Source of the DNA: Bradyrhizobium algeriense
GTDB lineage: Bacteria; Pseudomonadota; Alphaproteobacteria; Rhizobiales; Xanthobacteraceae
DNA length: 64,000 bases
Reading direction: 5' to 3'
NCBI RefSeq assembly: GCF_036924595.1
Contig: NZ_JAZHRV010000001.1
Span: forward strand, 992,001 to 1,056,000
Shown: positions 16,396 to 35,627 of the stretch, piece after piece
How positions within the stretch are numbered: position 1 is the first letter of the stretch
How the letters are laid out: each line of letters starts with the position of its first letter
Program-made: the position numbers and the translations under genes
The notes under the pieces: model-generated
The model's database searches: none
Told to the model about the DNA's origin: nothing
Seen by the model: the letters and a program-made list of their open reading frames with translations, nothing else

Positions 16396-16404
16396 ATTCT
16401 CAAA

Positions 16405-16834
16405 GCATCAGCCAGCCTGTAAGCCGGGTTCTGTAGGGCACCATTCTTGCGAATGGTACGTGACGGCCATTCCTCTGGGACCATGTTTGCACATGGCCTC
16501 GAGCAACCTACCCGGACGGCGAGCCTGACATCGCCCTGCGGAGTTATCGCCCGAAAGCGAACTGTCCGCGTTGCCGTCCCTATTCGGTTTTGCTCCCGGT
16601 GTGGTTTGCCATGCCGTTTCCGTTGCCGGATACGCGGTGCGCTCTTACCGCACCTTTTCACCCTTGCTCGCCCCCTCCCTTTCGGGTGGGGGAAAGCGGT
16701 TCATTCTCTGTGGCACTTTCCCTGGGGTTGCCCCCGCCGGACGTTATCCGGCACCGTATGTCGATGGAGCCCGGACTTTCCTCCCCCGCAGCCTTTCGAC
16801 CATAGCGGGAGCGGCCGTCCGGCCGACTGACGCC
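16405..16834 (-). ncRNA. rnpB: RNase P RNA (class A)
   Basis: About 430 nt on the minus strand. Read 5' to 3', it begins GGCGTCAGTCGGCCGG, soon shows the conserved GAGGAAAGTCCGGGCTCC block, then a GGGTGAAAAGGTGCGGTAAGAGC-like core (split: GGTGAAAAGGTGCGG, TAAGAGCGCACC) and ends with the universal ACAGAACCCGGCTTACAGG element before the pairing 3' end. This is the catalytic RNA that trims tRNA 5' leaders together with RnpA. Ends are set by P1 pairing and are good to a few bases. Confidence 0.95.
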
Positions 16835-27724: not shown

Positions 27725-29125
27725 ATGATCCCCGTCACCTCTTTTGCGGGCAAGGCGGTCGCCGTCTTCGGCCTCGGCGGTTCCGGCCTTGCGAGCTGCC
27801 ACGCGCTGAAGGCCGGCGGCGCCGAAGTGATCGCGGGCGACGACTCTGCCGACAATGTCGCCAAAGCGGCGCAGGCCGGTTTCACCACCGCCGATCTGCG
27901 CACGGTGTCGTGGTCGAATTTTGCGGCGCTGATTTTGACGCCCGGCGCGCCGCTCACCCATCCGGCGCCGCATTGGTCGGTGCTGATGGCGCGGCAGGCC
28001 GGCTGTGAGGTGATCGGCGACATCGAATTGTTTTGCCGCGAGCGCCGCCGTCACGCGCCGGACGCGCCGTTCGTTGCCATCACCGGCACCAACGGCAAGT
28101 CGACCACAACAGCGCTGATTGCGCATCTGATGAAGGTCGCCGGCTACGACAGCCAGATGGGCGGCAATATCGGCACCGCGATCCTGTCGCTGGAGCCGCC
28201 GCGCATGGGGCGCGTGCATGTGGTCGAAATGTCGTCGTACCAGATCGATCTGGCGCCTTCGCTCGATCCGTCGGTGGGGATTCTCCTCAATGTCAGCGAA
28301 GACCATATCGACCGCCACGGCACGCTGGAGCATTACGCCGCCGTGAAGGCGCGGCTGGTTGCTGGCGTGCAGCCGAAGGGTACCTCCATCGTCGGCGTCG
28401 ATGACGGCTGGTGCCGCAACATCGCCGACCGGCTCGATCAATCAGGCAAGCGCGTGGTGCGGATCTCCGTGAAGAACCCGCTGCCCGACGGCGTCTACGT
28501 CGAGCGCGAAACCATCGTGCAGGCCTCCGGCGGCGCGCGTCGCGAGATCGCAAGGCTGGGCGGCATCGGTTCGTTGCGCGGCCTGCACAATGCGCAGAAC
28601 GCGGCCTGCGCGTCGGCCTGCGCGCTGGCGATGGGCATCTCGATCGATATTTTGCAAAACGGCCTGCGCAGCTTTCCAGGGCTGGCACACCGCATGGAGC
28701 AGGTGGGACGTCGCGGCAACGTGCTGTTCGTCAACGATTCGAAGGGCACCAACGCCGATGCCGCCGCACACGCGCTGTCGTCCTTTGCCGACATCTTCTG
28801 GATCGCCGGCGGCAAGCCGAAGCAGGGCGGCATCACGGGGCTATCTGAATATTTCCCGCGCATCCGCAAAGCCTATCTGATCGGCGAAGCCGCGCAGGAG
28901 TTTGCGGGGACCCTGGGCGAGCGCGTGCCGCACGAGATTTCGGAGATGTTGGATGTCGCCGTTGCGAATGCCGCACGCGACGCCGAAGCGTCCGGGCTTG
29001 CCGACCCCGTGGTGCTCTTGTCGCCGGCCTGCGCCTCGTTCGACCAGTACCGCAATTTCGAAATCCGCGGCGCCAAGTTCCGCGATTTGGTGACGGCATT
29101 GCCGGGCGTCAAGCCGGTGGTGTGA
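27725..29125 (+). CDS. murD: UDP-MurNAc-L-Ala:D-Glu ligase
   Basis: 466 aa. An N-terminal Rossmann-like domain ([17 protein letters not shown]) is followed by the ATP P-loop [12 protein letters not shown] near residue 120, [12 protein letters not shown] and [13 protein letters not shown]. It adds D-Glu to UDP-MurNAc-L-Ala. In other rhizobial dcw clusters ftsW follows directly; here the next 5.3 kb are occupied by two IS elements and one other gene, beginning only 15 bp after the murD stop. Confidence 0.96.
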
Positions 29126-29340
29126 GGATGCGGATCGCGTAGGACCTCCTAGGGCTTGGTCAAGGGGCTTTCGTTCTTTGGGTGACAAGCGTAGCGCCGT
29201 GCTCGCCGCCGTCCAGGACGCTTCGCGCCGGCTACGCCGGTGCCGATGGCATCCTGGACAGCGGCTGTGCGCGGCGCTGTTGGGTTCGGCAGGTCGGGAC
29301 GAAGGAATGGTCGCAAGCGGCCGAACAAAGGAATGAGGCT

Positions 29341-30600
29341 TTACGGCGTGGCGACGGTCTGAGCACTCCTCTGGTCTGCCTCATACAGGGTCCGGTGGGT
29401 GAGCGTCGCGCACAGGGCGGAAAGCAAGCGATCAGCCACACCACGCAAAGCACGCGCATGGCCATGGCCGCGCTGCCGCAAGGCGTCGTAGCGTCGCCGA
29501 GCGGCTGCGTCGCGCTGGATGGCGACGCGTGACCAGTGATGGACCGCAGTCTGCAGCCGCTTGTTGCAGGCGAGGCGCCGGATCACGAAGCGTTGCTTGC
29601 CGCTTTGCCGTGTTACCGGAGCAACCCCTGCCAGAGCACGCAAGGCGTGATAATCTCGTGCCTGCAGCGGTTGCGCTGCTTCGGTGAGCAGTGTGGCGAG
29701 AACAATCCTGCCGATTCCCGGCCAGGAGCGCAGGATTGCCACGTCACACTGCTCATGGCTCTGCCCCGACGAGTTCTCCTCATCCTGTGCTGCGAGGCTG
29801 TCGCAAAGGCCGTCCAGGGCGGCGCCGGCTTCCTTGATCTGCTGATTGATCAGGTGCATGCGCGCCACAAGACTGCGGATATGGACGCACGCGGCCTCCC
29901 TGGTACCTGGTGCGACGAACAAGGCCGCCTTGCGCAAGGTCTGCAGCACGGTGGTGGCGTCGAGACGGCGGATGCGATGCTCCTTGAGGATGCGCGCAAT
30001 CGCCTTCTCCGATACCTTGGCGGCCGCAGCGGGGGTCGGCACCTTCTGCCACAGCGCCAGGAACCAATCATCTGCGACATCGTCGGTCAGTTCGGCCGCT
30101 TGCGGATAATAACGCCATAGCTGCTGGCGCAGGCGATTGGCCAGACGCGTCCGTTCCTGCAGCAGTTCATCCATAAGGCGCGACCACTCGCGCAGTTCGA
30201 TCACCGTCGGATCGTCGGTGGCAAGCTGCCGGAAGGCTTTCCGATCGGTGCGCAACGAGTCGCCGAGGACAAGAGCGTCACGGCTGTCATCCTTGGCGCC
30301 TGCGACCGTGAAGCGATCACGGAAGCGATCGAGTTGCTTGGGATTGATGGCAAAGACCGTAAACCCGTGCTCGAGCAGCATCTCCACCACGGGACCGTGC
30401 GGCATCTCGATCGCGACGGCGATCCGCCCCGGCGCGGCCTTGGTCTTCTCAAGCAGCCAGTCTCGCAGCTCCGTCAAGCCGGCTCCGCCATGGACGAACT
30501 CCCGCTCGCCCACGCGTCTTCCTTCGGCATCCAACAGGCAAACGCGATGGTTCTGCGTTGCCCAGTCGATCCCGACAAACCAATGCACATCCTCGACCAT
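29341..30600 (-). CDS. IS110-family transposase (DEDD recombinase), left copy
   Basis: 419 aa. The N-terminal RuvC-like DEDD domain shows FVGIDWATQNHRV (first Asp), AVAIEMPHGPV (Glu) and AGAKDDSRDALVL (Asp pair). The C-terminal Transposase_20 domain contains ILRSWPGIGRIVLATLL and RALAGVAPVTRQSGK, with the Ser-bearing segment typical of IS110. The reading frame is intact, so the enzyme may be active. It is about 88% identical by eye to the right copy, so the two are not a fresh duplication. IS110 recombinases use a bridge RNA from the element's own end. Confidence 0.93.
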   Translation of the reverse strand: MVEDVHWFVGIDWATQNHRVCLLDAEGRRVGEREFVHGGAGLTELRDWLLEKTKAAPGRIAVAIEMPHGPVVEMLLEHGFTVFAINPKQLDRFRDRFTVAGAKDDSRDALVLGDSLRTDRKAFRQLATDDPTVIELREWSRLMDELLQERTRLANRLRQQLWRYYPQAAELTDDVADDWFLALWQKVPTPAAAAKVSEKAIARILKEHRIRRLDATTVLQTLRKAALFVAPGTREAACVHIRSLVARMHLINQQIKEAGAALDGLCDSLAAQDEENSSGQSHEQCDVAILRSWPGIGRIVLATLLTEAAQPLQARDYHALRALAGVAPVTRQSGKQRFVIRRLACNKRLQTAVHHWSRVAIQRDAAARRRYDALRQRGHGHARALRGVADRLLSALCATLTHRTLYEADQRSAQTVATP

Positions 30601-30824
30601 TGCTCGACCTCCTCGCTTGCGAAGCGGGCCACTGCGATCCCGATCGATCCCTGTACTGGCGCTCTTGGCGCAAACCTCCTAGTGGATCTCGATCGCAGCC
30701 GCTCCACCGGGGCGCGGGTCCTACGCAGGTGCTCATGGCACAGATGGGTCAGGCGGCTCCCGGCGGATCGGCCCGTGCGACCAGTCTACATCTCCAGACT
30801 AGTGCCGAACGCTCAAAAGGGTAC
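30601..30824 (-). ncRNA. Candidate bridge RNA of left IS110 copy
   Basis: This 224-nt leader precedes the recombinase gene. Read in transposase sense, a first loop region carries ACCCATC (30743-30749) and GCGTAGG (30720-30726). They match the left and right arms of the REP target ACCCAT-CCT-ACGC. A second region carries CTAGGAGGT (30674-30682) and GTACAGG (30650-30656). They match the element's own right end and the complement of its left end, with a GCGC/GCGC hairpin between. This is the target loop plus donor loop layout of the IS621 bridge RNA. Exact ends are not known. Confidence 0.6.
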
Positions 30825-30898
30825 AGGATGGGTAGAGCGCAGCGAAACCCATCGCTGCGGTGCCGGTGATGGGTTTCGCTGCGCTCTACCCATCCTAC
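30825..30898. repeat. REP-like palindrome flanking the left IS
   Basis: AGGATGGGTAGAGCGCAGCG on the left is mirrored by CGCTGCGCTCTACCCATCCT on the right. The left edge is the IS insertion point. It lies 27 bp upstream of the DUF5107-like gene. Confidence 0.8.
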
Positions 30899-30924
30899 AT
30901 CCTGCTCCTTCGAGGGCGTCGTAA

Positions 30925-32373
30925 ATGGCAATTCATGCTCCCTCACGTAACCTTGTTCGTTTCTCGGTTGCGGTGCTTTCGGCGACCGTTGCGCTTCATG
31001 CCGTCGCAGGTACGGCTTCGCTGGCGTCTGATGGCGTGTCGCTCAGGGAGTCGACGATTTCGTGGAGCACTGTCAAATACGCGACCTCTGCGGAGAACGG
31101 ATTCGTCGGCGGGTCGCTCGACAAGAAGACCATCGTCGATCGCACGTTCAAGACCCACGTGCTCGAGAATCGTTATCTGAAGGTAACGCTCGTGCCCGAA
31201 TTCGGCGGTCGCATTCTTTCCATCGTCTACAAGCCGACCGGCCACGAACAACTTTATCGCAACGAGGTCGGCGTCCCCTATGGCATGAGCGCCGGCGTCT
31301 TTTATTACGACTGGCTGATGGTGTATGGCGGCATCTTCCCAACCTTCCCGGATCCCGAGCACGGCAGGACGTGGCTGAAGCCGTGGGATTTCAAGGTCGT
31401 GAAGGAGAGCGCCGGCGAAGTGACGGTGTCGATGTCGATTAAAGATGATTTCGCGTATCCCGCAGCGCCGACGCAGTTTTTCAAGGAGGTGACGGGTATC
31501 GAAGCGACTTACTACGTCACGCTGAAAGCCGACCGCGCCGCGCTCGATGCGCGCGTGGTGCTGAGAAATCCGCAAGCCCGGACGATCGACTACGAGTACT
31601 GGACGTGCACGACGCTCGCGCCGGGATCGGACCCGAACAACCCCAAGACGACCGGCGGCGCCGAGATCATCGCGCCGATCCAGGCCTACAGCACGCCCCG
31701 CTGGTCGGCCAATCTGTCCGAAGGCGACGAGAGTGCAGGCGCGGGCAGGAGCCGTTTCGAAAAACTGCGCCACTTCAGGAACTGGCCGACGATGGGCATC
31801 GCATACGCGGCGCCCGATATGCAGGGCGGGAATTTCTGGGGTGTGATCAACCACGACAACGAGGAGGGGATCATCCGCATCGCCGACAACACGGTCACAC
31901 CGGGCCTGAAGATGTGGACGTGGGGATTTCCGTCGTTCACGAACGAAACGGACGCCCGCAAGGACCCGAACGAAGCGCGGCCCTACGTCGAATTGTGGGC
32001 GGGCGTGTCGGACCAGTTTTTCCACCGCGCCCAGCTGCCCGCGCAGGGAGAGGTATCTATCCCGGAGACCTACAGCCCGACCGTCGGCATGAGCAATGTG
32101 ACGGCCGCGAACGAGAATATCCTGATCAATCTCTCGGCTGAGGCAGCGAGCGTGAATCTTCAGTTCTTCAGTATCGAACCGGCCATGCTGTTGCGCGTCA
32201 GGTTGAGACGCGGCGATGCGATATTGTTCAACGACGCCGTGACAGCCGACCCGAAAAACGGAAATCGCATTTCCGTAGGGGTTCCCGCCGGCGGCAGCGG
32301 CGAGCAGGTGCGGCTGACGATCACGACCCCGGAAGGCAAAGAGCTGATCGCGGCCGAGACAAAGATAAAGTGA
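30925..32373 (+). CDS. Exported DUF5107-like (aldose-mutarotase-fold) protein
   Basis: 482 aa with a signal peptide (hydrophobic 12-30, likely cleaved near TASLAS). The core resembles DUF5107: ENRYLKVTLVPEFGGRILS, GHEQLYRNEVGVPYG, YDWLMVYGGIFPTFPDPEHG and RTIDYEYWTCTTLAPG. Such domains have the galactose-mutarotase-like beta-sandwich and are linked to carbohydrate processing. No TPR part, often fused to it, is present. It is the only non-IS gene between murD and ftsW, bounded by REP-like palindromes. A periplasmic sugar-related role is inferred; no catalytic residues can be named. Confidence 0.7.
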   Translation: MAIHAPSRNLVRFSVAVLSATVALHAVAGTASLASDGVSLRESTISWSTVKYATSAENGFVGGSLDKKTIVDRTFKTHVLENRYLKVTLVPEFGGRILSIVYKPTGHEQLYRNEVGVPYGMSAGVFYYDWLMVYGGIFPTFPDPEHGRTWLKPWDFKVVKESAGEVTVSMSIKDDFAYPAAPTQFFKEVTGIEATYYVTLKADRAALDARVVLRNPQARTIDYEYWTCTTLAPGSDPNNPKTTGGAEIIAPIQAYSTPRWSANLSEGDESAGAGRSRFEKLRHFRNWPTMGIAYAAPDMQGGNFWGVINHDNEEGIIRIADNTVTPGLKMWTWGFPSFTNETDARKDPNEARPYVELWAGVSDQFFHRAQLPAQGEVSIPETYSPTVGMSNVTAANENILINLSAEAASVNLQFFSIEPAMLLRVRLRRGDAILFNDAVTADPKNGNRISVGVPAGGSGEQVRLTITTPEGKELIAAETKIK

Positions 32374-32471
32374 ATGGTTGCCAACCGGAAATCGGGCGTT
32401 TCGGTGCCGTTGCGAAACCGATCACCTCATAAACGCCAATTGATAGGTTCGCTCGCTCCGTCCAAAGAGCT

Positions 32472-32573
32472 GTCGTCACCCGCGAAGGCGGGTGATCCAG
32501 TATTCCAGAGGCGTCAGCGATAGAACCGAAATGCCGCGGCGTACTGGATACCCGCCTTCGCGGGTATGACGAC
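32472..32573. repeat. REP-like palindrome (GTCGTCACCCGCGAAGGCGGG type)
   Basis: GTCGTCACCCGCGAAGGCGG and the mirrored CCGCCTTCGCGGGTATGACGAC frame a CCAGTATTCCAGAGGCG/CGCCGCGGTATTT-like centre (quoted loosely; the exact shared centre is TCCAGTATTCCAGAGGCG). The same family occurs at 56222-56321 and, diverged, at 36819-36906. Confidence 0.75.
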
Positions 32574-32658
32574 TACTCGTGAGGAGCCACTACGCTGTCA
32601 TAAATGATAATGGTCCTCATTAACGCTTTCTCGACGCTGGCCATTTCTCAACCAAACT

Positions 32659-32689
32659 TGATGGGTATCGCTTTCGCTCCACCCATCCT
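32659..32689. repeat. REP-like half element at the right IS insertion point
   Basis: TGATGGGTATCGC followed by GCTCCACCCATCCT matches the 3' half of the palindrome at 58675-58794. The right IS follows immediately after CCT (32687-32689), and its far end is again CCT followed by ACGC. Confidence 0.65.
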
Positions 32690-32914
32690 GTACCCTTCTG
32701 GCGTTCGGCACCAGTCGTTGATGTAGACTGGCTGCACGGGCCGATCTGCCGGGAGCTGCCTGACCCACCCGTGCTATGAGCCACCTTCGTAGGACCTGCG
32801 CCCCGGTGGAGCGGCTGCGATCAATATCCACTAGGAGGTTTGCGCCAAGAGCGCCAGTACAGGGATCGATCGGGATCGCAGTGGGCCCGCTTTGAGAAGC
32901 GAGGAGGTCCAGTA
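32690..32914 (+). ncRNA. Candidate bridge RNA of right IS110 copy
   Basis: 225-nt leader. The donor-loop signals are exact: CTAGGAGGT at 32831-32839 equals the last bases of the element's right end (34361-34369), and GTACAGG at 32857-32863 is the complement of CCTGTAC at the left junction. GCGC-CAAGA-GCGC forms a hairpin between them. The target-loop candidates are ACCCAC (32763-32768, one mismatch to ACCCAT) and CGTAGG (32788-32793, complement of CCTACG at the target). Mature ends are unknown. Confidence 0.6.
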
Positions 32915-34174
32915 ATGGTTGAGGATGTGCGTTGGTTTGTCGGGATCGATTGGGCAACACAGAGCCACCGCGTTTGCCTGCTTGATAGCGAAGGAGGACG
33001 CATGGGCGAGCGGGAGTTCGCCCATGGCGGAGCCGGACTGATGGAACTGCGAGATTGGTTGCTGCAGAAGACCGGGGCTGCGCCGGGGCAGATCGCCGTC
33101 GCGATCGAGATGCCGCATGGTCCCGTGGTGGAGATGCTGCTCGAGCACGGGTTTGTGGTCTTTGCCATCAATCCCAAGCAGCTCGATCGTTTCCGCGATC
33201 GCTTCACAGTCGCAGGCGCCAAGGATGACAGCCGAGACGCCCTTGTCCTTGGAGACTCACTGCGTACCGATCGGAAAGCCTTCCGGCAGCTTGCGATCGA
33301 CAATCCGGTGGTGATCGAGCTGCGCGAGTGGTCGCGCCTCGTGGACGAGTTGCAGCAGGAACGGACGCGTCTGGCCAATCGTCTGCGTCAGCAGCTGTGG
33401 CGCTACTATCCGCAGGCGACCGAACTAGCCGATGATGTCGGGGACGACTGGTTCCTGGCGCTGTGGCAAAAGGTGCCGACCCCCGCCGCCGCCGCGAAGG
33501 TAACGGAGAAGACGGTTGCGCGCATCCTCAAGGACCACCGCATCCGGCGTCTCGATGCCGCCACCGTGCTGCAGACCTTGCGCAAGACGGCCTTGTTCGT
33601 CGCCCCAGGCACGACGGAGGCCGCTTGCGTGCATATCCGCAGTCTCGCGGCGCGCATGCACCTGGTCAATCAGCAGATCAAGGAAGCCCACAACGCCCTG
33701 GACGGCCTCTGCGCCGGGCTCGCGGCACCGGACGAGGAGAGCCCGTCGGGGCAGAGCCGTGAGCAGTGTGACGTGGCAATCCTTCGCTCCTGGCCGGGAA
33801 TCGGCAGGATTGTTCTCGCCACACTGCTCACCGAGGCAGCGCAGCCGCTGCAGGCCCGAGATTATCACGCCTTGCGTGCGCTGGCAGGGGTTGCTCCGGT
33901 GACGCGGCAAAGCGGCAAACAACGCTTCGTGATCCGCCGCCACGCCTGCAACAGGAGGCTGCAGACCGCCGTTCATCATTGGTCGCGCGTTGCCATCCAG
34001 CACGATGCTGCCGCGCGGCGCCGCTATGATGCCTTGCGGCAGCGCGGCCACGGCCATGCACGTGCGTTGCGTAGCGTGGGCGATCGCCTGCTCTCGGCTC
34101 TATGCTCGACCCTCAAGAGCCGGACCCTGTATGATGCCAACCGCGGGAGTTCGCAGATCTCCGTCAAACAGTAA
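32915..34174 (+). CDS. IS110-family transposase (DEDD recombinase), right copy
   Basis: 419 aa from ATG 32915, with GAGGAGG 7-8 bp upstream; the longer frame runs into the bridge-RNA region. It has the same DEDD domain (FVGIDWATQSHRV, AVAIEMPHGPV, AGAKDDSRDALVL) and Transposase_20 domain (RSWPGIGRIVLATLL) as the left copy, with scattered substitutions and a different C-terminal 15 residues. The frame is intact. Divergence from the left copy means separate arrival, or an old pair. Confidence 0.93.
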   Translation: MVEDVRWFVGIDWATQSHRVCLLDSEGGRMGEREFAHGGAGLMELRDWLLQKTGAAPGQIAVAIEMPHGPVVEMLLEHGFVVFAINPKQLDRFRDRFTVAGAKDDSRDALVLGDSLRTDRKAFRQLAIDNPVVIELREWSRLVDELQQERTRLANRLRQQLWRYYPQATELADDVGDDWFLALWQKVPTPAAAAKVTEKTVARILKDHRIRRLDAATVLQTLRKTALFVAPGTTEAACVHIRSLAARMHLVNQQIKEAHNALDGLCAGLAAPDEESPSGQSREQCDVAILRSWPGIGRIVLATLLTEAAQPLQARDYHALRALAGVAPVTRQSGKQRFVIRRHACNRRLQTAVHHWSRVAIQHDAAARRRYDALRQRGHGHARALRSVGDRLLSALCSTLKSRTLYDANRGSSQISVKQ

Positions 34175-34411
34175 GCCTCATTCCTTGGTTCGGCCGCTTG
34201 CGACCATTCCTTCGTCCCGACCTGCCGAACCCGACAGCGACGCGCGCAGACGCTGTCCAGGATGCCATCGGCACCGGCGTAGCCGGCGCGGAGCGTCCTG
34301 GACGGCGGCGAGCACGGCGCTACGCTCGTCATTCAAGGACGCCCAGCTCCTTGACGAAAGCTAGGAGGTCCTACGCACCGTCGCCCGATCCCTCAAAAGT
34401 TACCGTCCCCA

Positions 34412-34427
34412 TTAACCCCCCGTAAAC
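34412..34427. promoter_or_regulatory. Near-consensus CtrA box before ftsW
   Basis: TTAA-N7-TAAA followed by C, one base from TTAA-N7-TTAA. It lies 40 bp inside from the right IS end and about 50 bp before ftsW, so the IS left it intact. CtrA binding is inferred. Confidence 0.35.
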
Positions 34428-34475
34428 CATCCTGCTCCACCAATGGGCGTTACCTCTGCCATTTTGGGGACGCCC

Positions 34476-35627
34476 ATGCTCGCCCGTGACCAACGCACGC
34501 CGTTTTCGGACTGGTGGTGGACCGTGGATAAGCTGCTGCTCGGCGCGATCATGGCGCTGATGCTGGGTGGCGTCATCCTGTCGCTCGCGGCGAGCCCGCC
34601 GGTGGCGACGCGGATCGGGCTCGATCCCTTCCATTTCTTCGGCCGGCACGTGCTGTTCCTGTTGCCGTCCTTGATGGTGCTGATCGGGGTGTCGTTCCTG
34701 TCACCCAAGCACATCCGCCGCCTCGCGTTGCTGGTGTTCGTGGTCTCGATCCTGCTGATCGTGGCGACGCTTGTCTTCGGCGCCGAGGTGAAGGGATCGC
34801 GGCGCTGGATCACGCTGCTCGGCGTCAACATCCAGGCCTCCGAATCCGCCAAGCCTGCCTTCGTGGTGATGGCGGCGTGGCTGTTTGCGGAATCGACCAA
34901 GCGGCCGGAAATGCCGGCGACGTCGATGGCGATCGTGCTGTTGCTGACGCTGGTGGCGCTGCTGGTGATGGAACCGGATTTCGGCCAGACCATGCTGATC
35001 CTGATGGTGTGGGGCGCGCTGTTCTTCATCGCGGGCATGCGGATGATCTGGGTGGCCGGCCTTGCCGGCGTCGCGGCGGCCGGATTGTTCGGCGCCTATC
35101 TTCTGGTCCCGCACGTCGCGGGCCGCATCAAGCGCTTCATCAATCCGGCCTCCGGCGACACCTTCCAGGTCGACATGGCAATGGAAGCCTTCTGGAACGG
35201 CGGCTGGTTCGGCCTCGGACCCGGCGAGGGCATTGCAAAACGCAGCCTGCCGGACAGTCATACCGACTTCGTGTTCGCGGTGGCCGCCGAAGAGTTCGGC
35301 ATCATCCTGTGCCTGGCGCTAGTTTCGCTGTTCGCCTTCGTCGTGATCCGGACGCTGACACGCGCCTATTCGAGCGAGGACATGTTCGCGCGCTTTGCGG
35401 CGTCGGGGCTTGCGATCCTGTTCGGCGTGCAGGCCGCGATCAACATGGCCGTCAATCTGCAACTGATACCTGCCAAGGGCATGACGCTGCCCTTCATCTC
35501 CTATGGCGGCTCGTCGATCATCTCGCTGGCTTACGGCGTCGGCATGATGCTGGCGCTGACACGGCAACGCCCGCGTACCGAGGTGGAATCGATGAACGCG
35601 GCCGGCGTGTCGCGCGGTTACGCCTAG
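34476..35627 (+). CDS. ftsW: Septal peptidoglycan glycosyltransferase FtsW
   Basis: 383 aa from ATG 34476 (GGGGAC just upstream; MLARDQRTPFSDWWW fits the family better than the 11-residue extension from 34443). A SEDS protein with about ten helices: FGAEVKGSRRWI, EPDFGQTMLI, DTFQVDMAMEAFWNGGWFGLGPGEG (quoted in part: WNGGWFGLGPGEG), LPDSHTDFVFAVAAEEFG and LPFISYGGSSI. It polymerises lipid II at the septum with FtsI. The two IS elements separate it from murD, so it needs its own promoter. Confidence 0.95.
   Translation: MLARDQRTPFSDWWWTVDKLLLGAIMALMLGGVILSLAASPPVATRIGLDPFHFFGRHVLFLLPSLMVLIGVSFLSPKHIRRLALLVFVVSILLIVATLVFGAEVKGSRRWITLLGVNIQASESAKPAFVVMAAWLFAESTKRPEMPATSMAIVLLLTLVALLVMEPDFGQTMLILMVWGALFFIAGMRMIWVAGLAGVAAAGLFGAYLLVPHVAGRIKRFINPASGDTFQVDMAMEAFWNGGWFGLGPGEGIAKRSLPDSHTDFVFAVAAEEFGIILCLALVSLFAFVVIRTLTRAYSSEDMFARFAASGLAILFGVQAAINMAVNLQLIPAKGMTLPFISYGGSSIISLAYGVGMMLALTRQRPRTEVESMNAAGVSRGYA

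Follow-up and report, generated by a model that had tools for sequence, protein, structure and literature searches.

In this study, we found that the right of two IS110 elements in a Bradyrhizobium algeriense window (the whole stretch of 64,000 nucleotides that was analysed) is very likely an IS110-group insertion sequence, probably recently active, with a leader that encodes a predicted bridge RNA. The guides of this RNA, its fold, a promoter motif at the joined ends, the target preference of a sister element called type B and the empty site of one copy are all supported by computation.

The host genome is a single contig of 8.10 Mb. The two IS110 elements in the window have opposite orientation and are 87-95% alike over three matching stretches. 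The right element, of type A (32687..34369, plus strand; ends placed by junction logic), is 1683 bp long including one core copy. The left one, of type B (29144..30827, minus strand; placed from its sequence and from an exact empty site in the conspecific genome G004), is 1684 bp long. This inverted pair (29144-34369) flanks a DUF5107 gene (30925-32373), and the two leaders face each other across that gene. A Mur ligase gene (27725-29125) lies on the left copy's side and an FtsW/RodA-type gene (34443-35627) on the right copy's side. When all of the 35 candidates in this genome were scored, ten IS110 copies were obtained, four of type A and six of type B, and the recombinases of the two types are 88% identical as proteins. 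Three type A copies (L001, L002 and L003) are identical across 1683 bp and L004 has 3 differences; five type B copies are identical and the sixth has 1 difference. Because the copies within each type are near-identical, both types have probably moved recently.

The recombinase of the right copy (32915..34174, plus strand) has 419 amino acids. It matches Pfam PF01548 and PF02371, and NCBIfam NF033542 (IS110 transposase) above the cut-off. In a sequence search of the PDB, the only match was IS621 (E 1.9e-5, weak per stretch). IS621 also came first in a Foldseek search (E 2.1e-12, TM 0.53/0.67) with an AlphaFold model of pLDDT 81 and pTM 0.64, whose confidence is low around S333. In the PDB sequence match, D12, D105, D108 and S333 align with IS621 residues, and E65 is one gap from an IS621 Glu. 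This Glu and the IS621 residues aligned with D12, D105 and D108 are presumably catalytic. A separate protein alignment left out L043 for its split frame. The residue aligned with S333 is S241, the catalytic residue reported for IS621 (PMC11208158). Sequence and modelled fold together point to a recombinase with DEDD RuvC-like and Transposase_20 parts and a predicted catalytic serine.

The search for relatives gave matches in 11 of 265 genomes of the genus and in samples of the family (9/391), order (4/397) and class (2/385); the own genome is counted in all four tallies and the samples overlap. Since 4-6 candidates were scored per genome, distant copies may be missed. Further relatives came from genome contigs (8 loci) and from plasmids (9 records, 5 fetched, H4-H7 left out). 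The test set comprised 20 non-redundant elements and 36 copies with a left target, in three groups that we named clades: I (like the right copy), and the more distant II and III. Before the guides were counted, we dropped L017, L021, L023 and L025-L027 (right halves only; five of them supplied the right targets of the element 'man'), L028 (the same sequence as L014), L029 and L037 (left end lost), L038 (a leaderless match) and L041 (decayed). In L029 and L037, the left end seems to have been cut away beside a palindromic repeat, and the guides are still there. Meanwhile, L018, L040, L042, L043 and L047 carry about 60-160 extra bases between the left end and the target loop, and by eye their targets are C-runs.

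The guides covary with the ends and targets across these homologous copies, as the first-pass annotation had demanded. L042 has no left target guide and L040 no right end, so the four arms have n = 19, 19, 19 and 20. With relatedness inside clades remaining in the permutations, the own match was 0.773 against a permuted mean of 0.519 for the left target (n = 19), 0.800 against 0.568 for the right target (n = 19) and 0.988 against 0.788 for the left donor (n = 19), and none of 20,000 permutations was as high in any of the three; for the right donor it was 0.993 against 0.947 (n = 20, P = 0.0005). When guides were permuted within clades only, P was 0.002 for the left target guide, 0.0003 for the left donor guide and a borderline 0.052 for the right target guide, and the right donor guide showed no variation inside clades. 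Furthermore, a leader-wide scan of the 20 elements, which presumes no guide position, recovered the four proposed guides as its best windows, each on the strand needed for pairing. These windows start at 32762 on the plus strand for the left target (0.82; next on either strand 0.54), 32787 on the minus strand for the right target (0.87; next 0.63), 32831 on the plus strand for the left donor (0.99; next 0.55) and 32857 on the minus strand for the right donor (0.99; next on that strand 0.63). On the plus strand, the right donor end matches itself trivially, and a further window, at 32854, has a score of 0.79.

The left donor guide CTAGGAGGT (32831..32839, plus strand) recurs at 34361-34369, directly before the right junction. 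The right donor guide GTACAGG (32857..32863, plus strand) is the reverse complement of CCTGTAC at the left junction (32687-32693), and a GCGC...GCGC hairpin lies between the two words. These three readings of the first-pass annotation stand, and each word is also the top window of its leader-wide scan. When the leader (32690-32914) was shuffled 20,000 times with its dinucleotides preserved, 18 shuffles contained the 9-mer and 281 the 7-mer, and none contained both words in order within 60 nt. Elements of clade III have the guide GAACAGG with CCTGTTC ends, and in L036 the guide GTAGGAAGT matches its own GTAGGAAGT. Mismatches were found on the left in L011 and L042 and on the right in L040.

The right copy lies between a left target half, CACCCAT (32680..32686, plus strand), which is the end of a REP-like palindrome, and a right target half, TACGCA (34372..34377, plus strand). 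Its left target guide is TGACCCACC (32761..32769, plus strand; the top scan window has 8 bases) and its right target guide is TTCGTAGG (32786..32793, plus strand; the top window has 7 bases, on the complementary strand). The site reads CCACCCATC, then CCTACGCA, and the full guides match it at 6/9 and 7/8 positions. The hexamers ACCCAC and CGTAGG, put forward earlier as the target guides, both lie inside them, with one mismatch over ACCCAC, but the guides are longer than six bases. Relatives follow the same pairing: L012, L013 and L015 combine the guide TTGCCCACC with the target TTGCCCACC, and L036 combines TGGCCCACC with TGGCCCACC. Left target matches are poor in five clade II elements (3-7 of 9) and in L016 (5/9). 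The right target guides of L011-L016 and L036 fit poorly past CCTACG (4-7 of 8). In the own genome, 8 of the 10 copies have CCCATC as the left target. REPs of Bradyrhizobium with a GTAG tag have been described (PMC3733652); because the end of the target palindrome is GTAG, we infer from its sequence that it is one of them. The term IS110 is absent from the part of that paper available to us.

The trinucleotide CCT, which had been placed between the target halves, is indeed shared by both junctions of the right copy (32687-32689 and 34370-34372), but the core is probably CC, as judged from relatives (left core 32687..32688, right core 34370..34371, both plus strand). In clade I, CCT is common to donor and target, so both CC and CT fit there, and two C's in the donor are shown by the empty site of the left copy. 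Outside clade I, the donor T after the C-run corresponds to a C in the target in 11 of the 29 copies whose right end can be read. All 11 belong to clades II and III, and a CT core is excluded in them. Thus, the core of the element is probably CC and not the CT of IS621, with one base of play left by the C-runs and an empty site known for clade I. We had initially assumed a CT core, but clades II and III argue against one.

The handshake bases are consistent with this core. In the target loop, an A (32794, plus strand) found in 17/17 leaders faces donor position 7, which is T in 29/29 copies with a right end. In the donor loop, a G (32864, plus strand) faces target position 7, and this contact, counted with a CC core, is a Watson-Crick pair in 26 of the 36 copies and a G-U pair in 9, with 1 copy showing neither. 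Counting G-U, the bases fit in 35/36 copies (permutation P = 0.007). For example, the contact is A-T in L011 and T-A in L045, and it fails in L044. The handshake resembles the pairing described for IS621.

In the predicted fold of the right copy's leader, a 5' stem-loop (32708..32735, plus strand), which was observed by folding the clade I set, is followed by the target-binding loop with its stem (32742..32813, plus strand) and then by the donor-binding loop with its stem (32814..32882, plus strand). With RNAalifold on 17 leaders (the alignment, A2, did not include L040, L042 and L047), each of the two stems was recovered with a hairpin, and 15 of the 36 pairs are changed on both sides. The two-loop fold proposed for 32690-32914 therefore exists and is conserved through compensatory changes. 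In the consensus fold, 97.7% of cells were paired, against 91.1% in shuffled alignments and 30-46% in slid versions, which are at a disadvantage, since this very alignment had supplied the structure. Double changes occurred in 54 cells against 18.7 in shuffles; further pair types were not above shuffles (112 of 500). The stability of the single-sequence leader fold was not above shuffles (z +0.70), and single-leader stability is not informative. The leader had no match in Rfam.

In addition, four invariant A's precede the guides (32754, 32779, 32824 and 32850; 17/17 leaders each). The left target guide of 9 bases begins at +7 from its A, or at +8 in four elements; +7 is also the start of both donor guides, and the last base of the right target guide is at +13, or at +14 in type A. 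The corresponding offsets given for the four A's of IS621 are +7, +7, +7 and +13 (PMC11208158), so that the guides here lie at similar distances. A hand count that assumes a CC core puts the right guides on the DNA positions that are paired in IS621, and the start of the left guides 1-2 positions further left. In IS621, the fifth base after each flipped-out A is a conserved syn-G. At these protein-contact positions, the base here is C at all four A's (32759, 32784, 32829 and 32855; 17/17 leaders at all four).

The left copy has an exact empty site in G004, where the site is intact and joined as predicted; this shows a scarless insertion at a short core. G004 contains no intact copy among the best 6 of 17 candidates, and one right-end fragment was found. 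The site of L003 is also empty, with one base changed in the target half. For the right copy, a search for an exact empty site found only similar palindromes in the same intergenic region.

The right end of the right copy carries a -35-like motif, TTGACG (34351..34356, plus strand), which in a circle would be completed by a -10-like motif, TACCCT, in the left end (32691..32696, plus strand). In 15 of the 19 joined ends, the best arrangement was a TTGAC-like box, 17 bases and then a TACCCT- or TCCAAT-like box; the best spacing at the type B junction is 16. The mean promoter score of 18 junctions was 7.67 of 12 against 6.46, and none of 300 mononucleotide shuffles was as high. A sigma-70-like scan of 32400-34500 gave a single site, which lies within the gene; the leader had none.

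The two types in this genome share identical donor guides and differ in their target guides. The guides of the left copy (minus strand) lie at 30743-30751 (left target), 30720-30727 (right target), 30674-30682 (left donor) and 30650-30656 (right donor), and the type B target guides read CCCATC on the left and are made for TACGCA on the right. There are 130 free CCCAYCCTACG[ACG] sites in the own genome, 20 with CCCAT and 110 with CCCAC, and 4 of the reversed pattern. All six type B copies lie in the rarer CCCATC sites, against 20/130 free sites (P = 2.9e-5). Furthermore, C follows CCTACG at 5/6 type B copies and at 0/20 free CCCAT sites (P = 9.1e-5); the base after CCTACG in these 20 is A or G, and C or T in none. 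Genome G090 has 6 CCCAT and 190 CCCAC sites, and the one copy found there has the guide CCCATC and lies in CCCATC. Type A, with the guide CCCACC, showed no site preference, with 2 of its 4 copies in each kind of site. L014 has the guide CCCACC, yet it is located in CCCATC.

The site of the right copy matches the target guides of type B at 15/15 bases and its own type A guides at 13/15, the first two bases of the left guide being left out of this comparison. Because the right copy fits the type B guides better, the RNA of its sister may have pasted it into its site, and such pasting in trans by a type B complex would be possible because types A and B share their donor guides. Insertion under its own mismatched guides, with the mismatches tolerated, is a rather probable alternative to this pasting alone, since zero to two mismatches are reported as usual in natural IS110 targets (PMC11208160). 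Across the 10 copies, own guides did better than sister guides in 7, equally well in 2 and worse in 1 (the right copy), and this assignment is borderline, as 13 of 210 type A/B labelings do as well and the label test alone is weak. The perfect type B fit of the site and the identity of the donor guides speak for trans pasting and against own-guide insertion. The joint reading, in which the right copy came from cross-pasting in trans and belongs to a CC-core lineage whose RNA has C in place of G at all four recombinase contacts, is one that we put forward tentatively.

We also considered a depletion of targets in the own genome. Free CCCATCCTACG sites followed by C or T number 0 there, and G004 has 13 with C and 1 with T. 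These 14 sites lie in 13 stretches, of which two match flanks of own IS copies and 7 are unplaced. For the four sites on contig C110 of G004, all 4 loci were found in the own genome, with the palindrome absent or replaced, and the idea of site exhaustion was dropped for that reason.

Three further explanations can be set against a guide RNA. Repeated end sequences inside elements can be protein-binding sites, and the matching words might be DNA binding sites of the recombinase repeated in the leader. We regard this as highly improbable: the left guides match one strand and the right guides the other, as pairing requires, the segments lie in the loops of a fold kept by compensatory changes, and sites for the element's own ends do not explain internal copies of the target halves. 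It is still less probable that the leader RNA only regulates transposase expression and that its matches to ends and targets arose as a by-product. Such regulation by small RNAs is reported for ISPpu9 (PMC8450116), and the leader here is directly upstream of the gene and able to fold, but a regulatory role leaves both the covariation with targets and ends and the site choice of type B within one genome unexplained. A spread of the copies between palindromes by homologous recombination instead of transposition is equally remote. The copies are near-identical and located in repeats, as such a spread would have it, but the flanks past the target differ at each copy, and at the left copy's empty site in G004 the element alone is missing.

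A bridge RNA thus remains the preferred reading, and the IS621-like donor-loop logic claimed at the outset is borne out by fold conservation and guide covariation. On this reading, the recombinase would excise the element as a circle, whose joined ends would build the promoter TTGACG-17-TACCCT. From this promoter, an RNA of about 180 nt would start near 32703. The donor loop of this RNA would pair with the joined ends of the circle, and the target loop would pair with the two strands of the REP-like palindrome at its GTAG end. Two recombinase dimers, presumably bound to the RNA, would then exchange strands at the core, probably CC.

IS110 bridge RNAs, circle-junction promoters and REP targets have been published (PMC11208160, PMC11208158, PMC11187229, PMC1525189). 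Like IS621 of E. coli, the right copy has a predicted leader-encoded RNA with a 5' hairpin, target and donor loops and four guides, as well as handshake bases, a circle-junction promoter (here a motif), a REP target and a DEDD plus Ser recombinase. Unlike IS621, its core is probably CC instead of CT, its right donor guide is contiguous, the right target guide of type B seems to read one base past CCTACG, and the recombinase has 419 amino acids, whereas the IS621 chain has 328 residues. Clade I elements further differ from IS621 by a large hairpin in their right end. This conserved long hairpin (34237..34320, plus strand; z -4.06 for 34228-34320) has 33 pairs, 6 of them changed on both sides among 10 relatives, and 34228-34320 had no Rfam match up to E 1.

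The predicted RNA is also like the seekRNA described for IS1111/IS110 elements such as ISEc21 and ISPa11 (PMC11187229), where an RNA from a noncoding region guides target choice; in the IS110 type, it is reported upstream of the gene, as the guides are here. IS1111 members are described as having the RNA usually downstream and longer subterminal inverted repeats (PMC11208160), 7-17 bp being the criterion for that group. Unlike the IS1111 group, the four guides here are in the left end, upstream of the gene, in a scan that covered the leader. ISRm19 of Sinorhizobium meliloti is likewise a rhizobial IS110-family element in REPs (4/4 there; PMC1525189), and guides are not mentioned in the part of that report available to us. 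Within our partial library, no literature was found on the IS110 elements or palindromes of this lineage, or on its core dinucleotide or bridge RNA.

The own genome offers a natural two-guide experiment, in which sister recombinases share their donor guides but not their target guides, and some 130 unoccupied candidate sites serve as the comparison. This makes it testable whether sister elements use each other's RNAs. If true, the cross-pasting of sister circles would be a natural case of bridge-RNA action in trans. In addition, the results point to bridge systems in which the core is CC and the RNA-protein contacts form a different set, and both features would bear on the engineering of such recombinases.

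Two other features of the window were seen. A second palindromic repeat at 32470-32570, with the ends GTCGTC...GACGAC, may belong to the CGTC-tagged REPs that have been described in Bradyrhizobium (PMC3733652). Meanwhile, a gene for RNase P RNA of bacterial class A lies at 16404-16830 on the minus strand.
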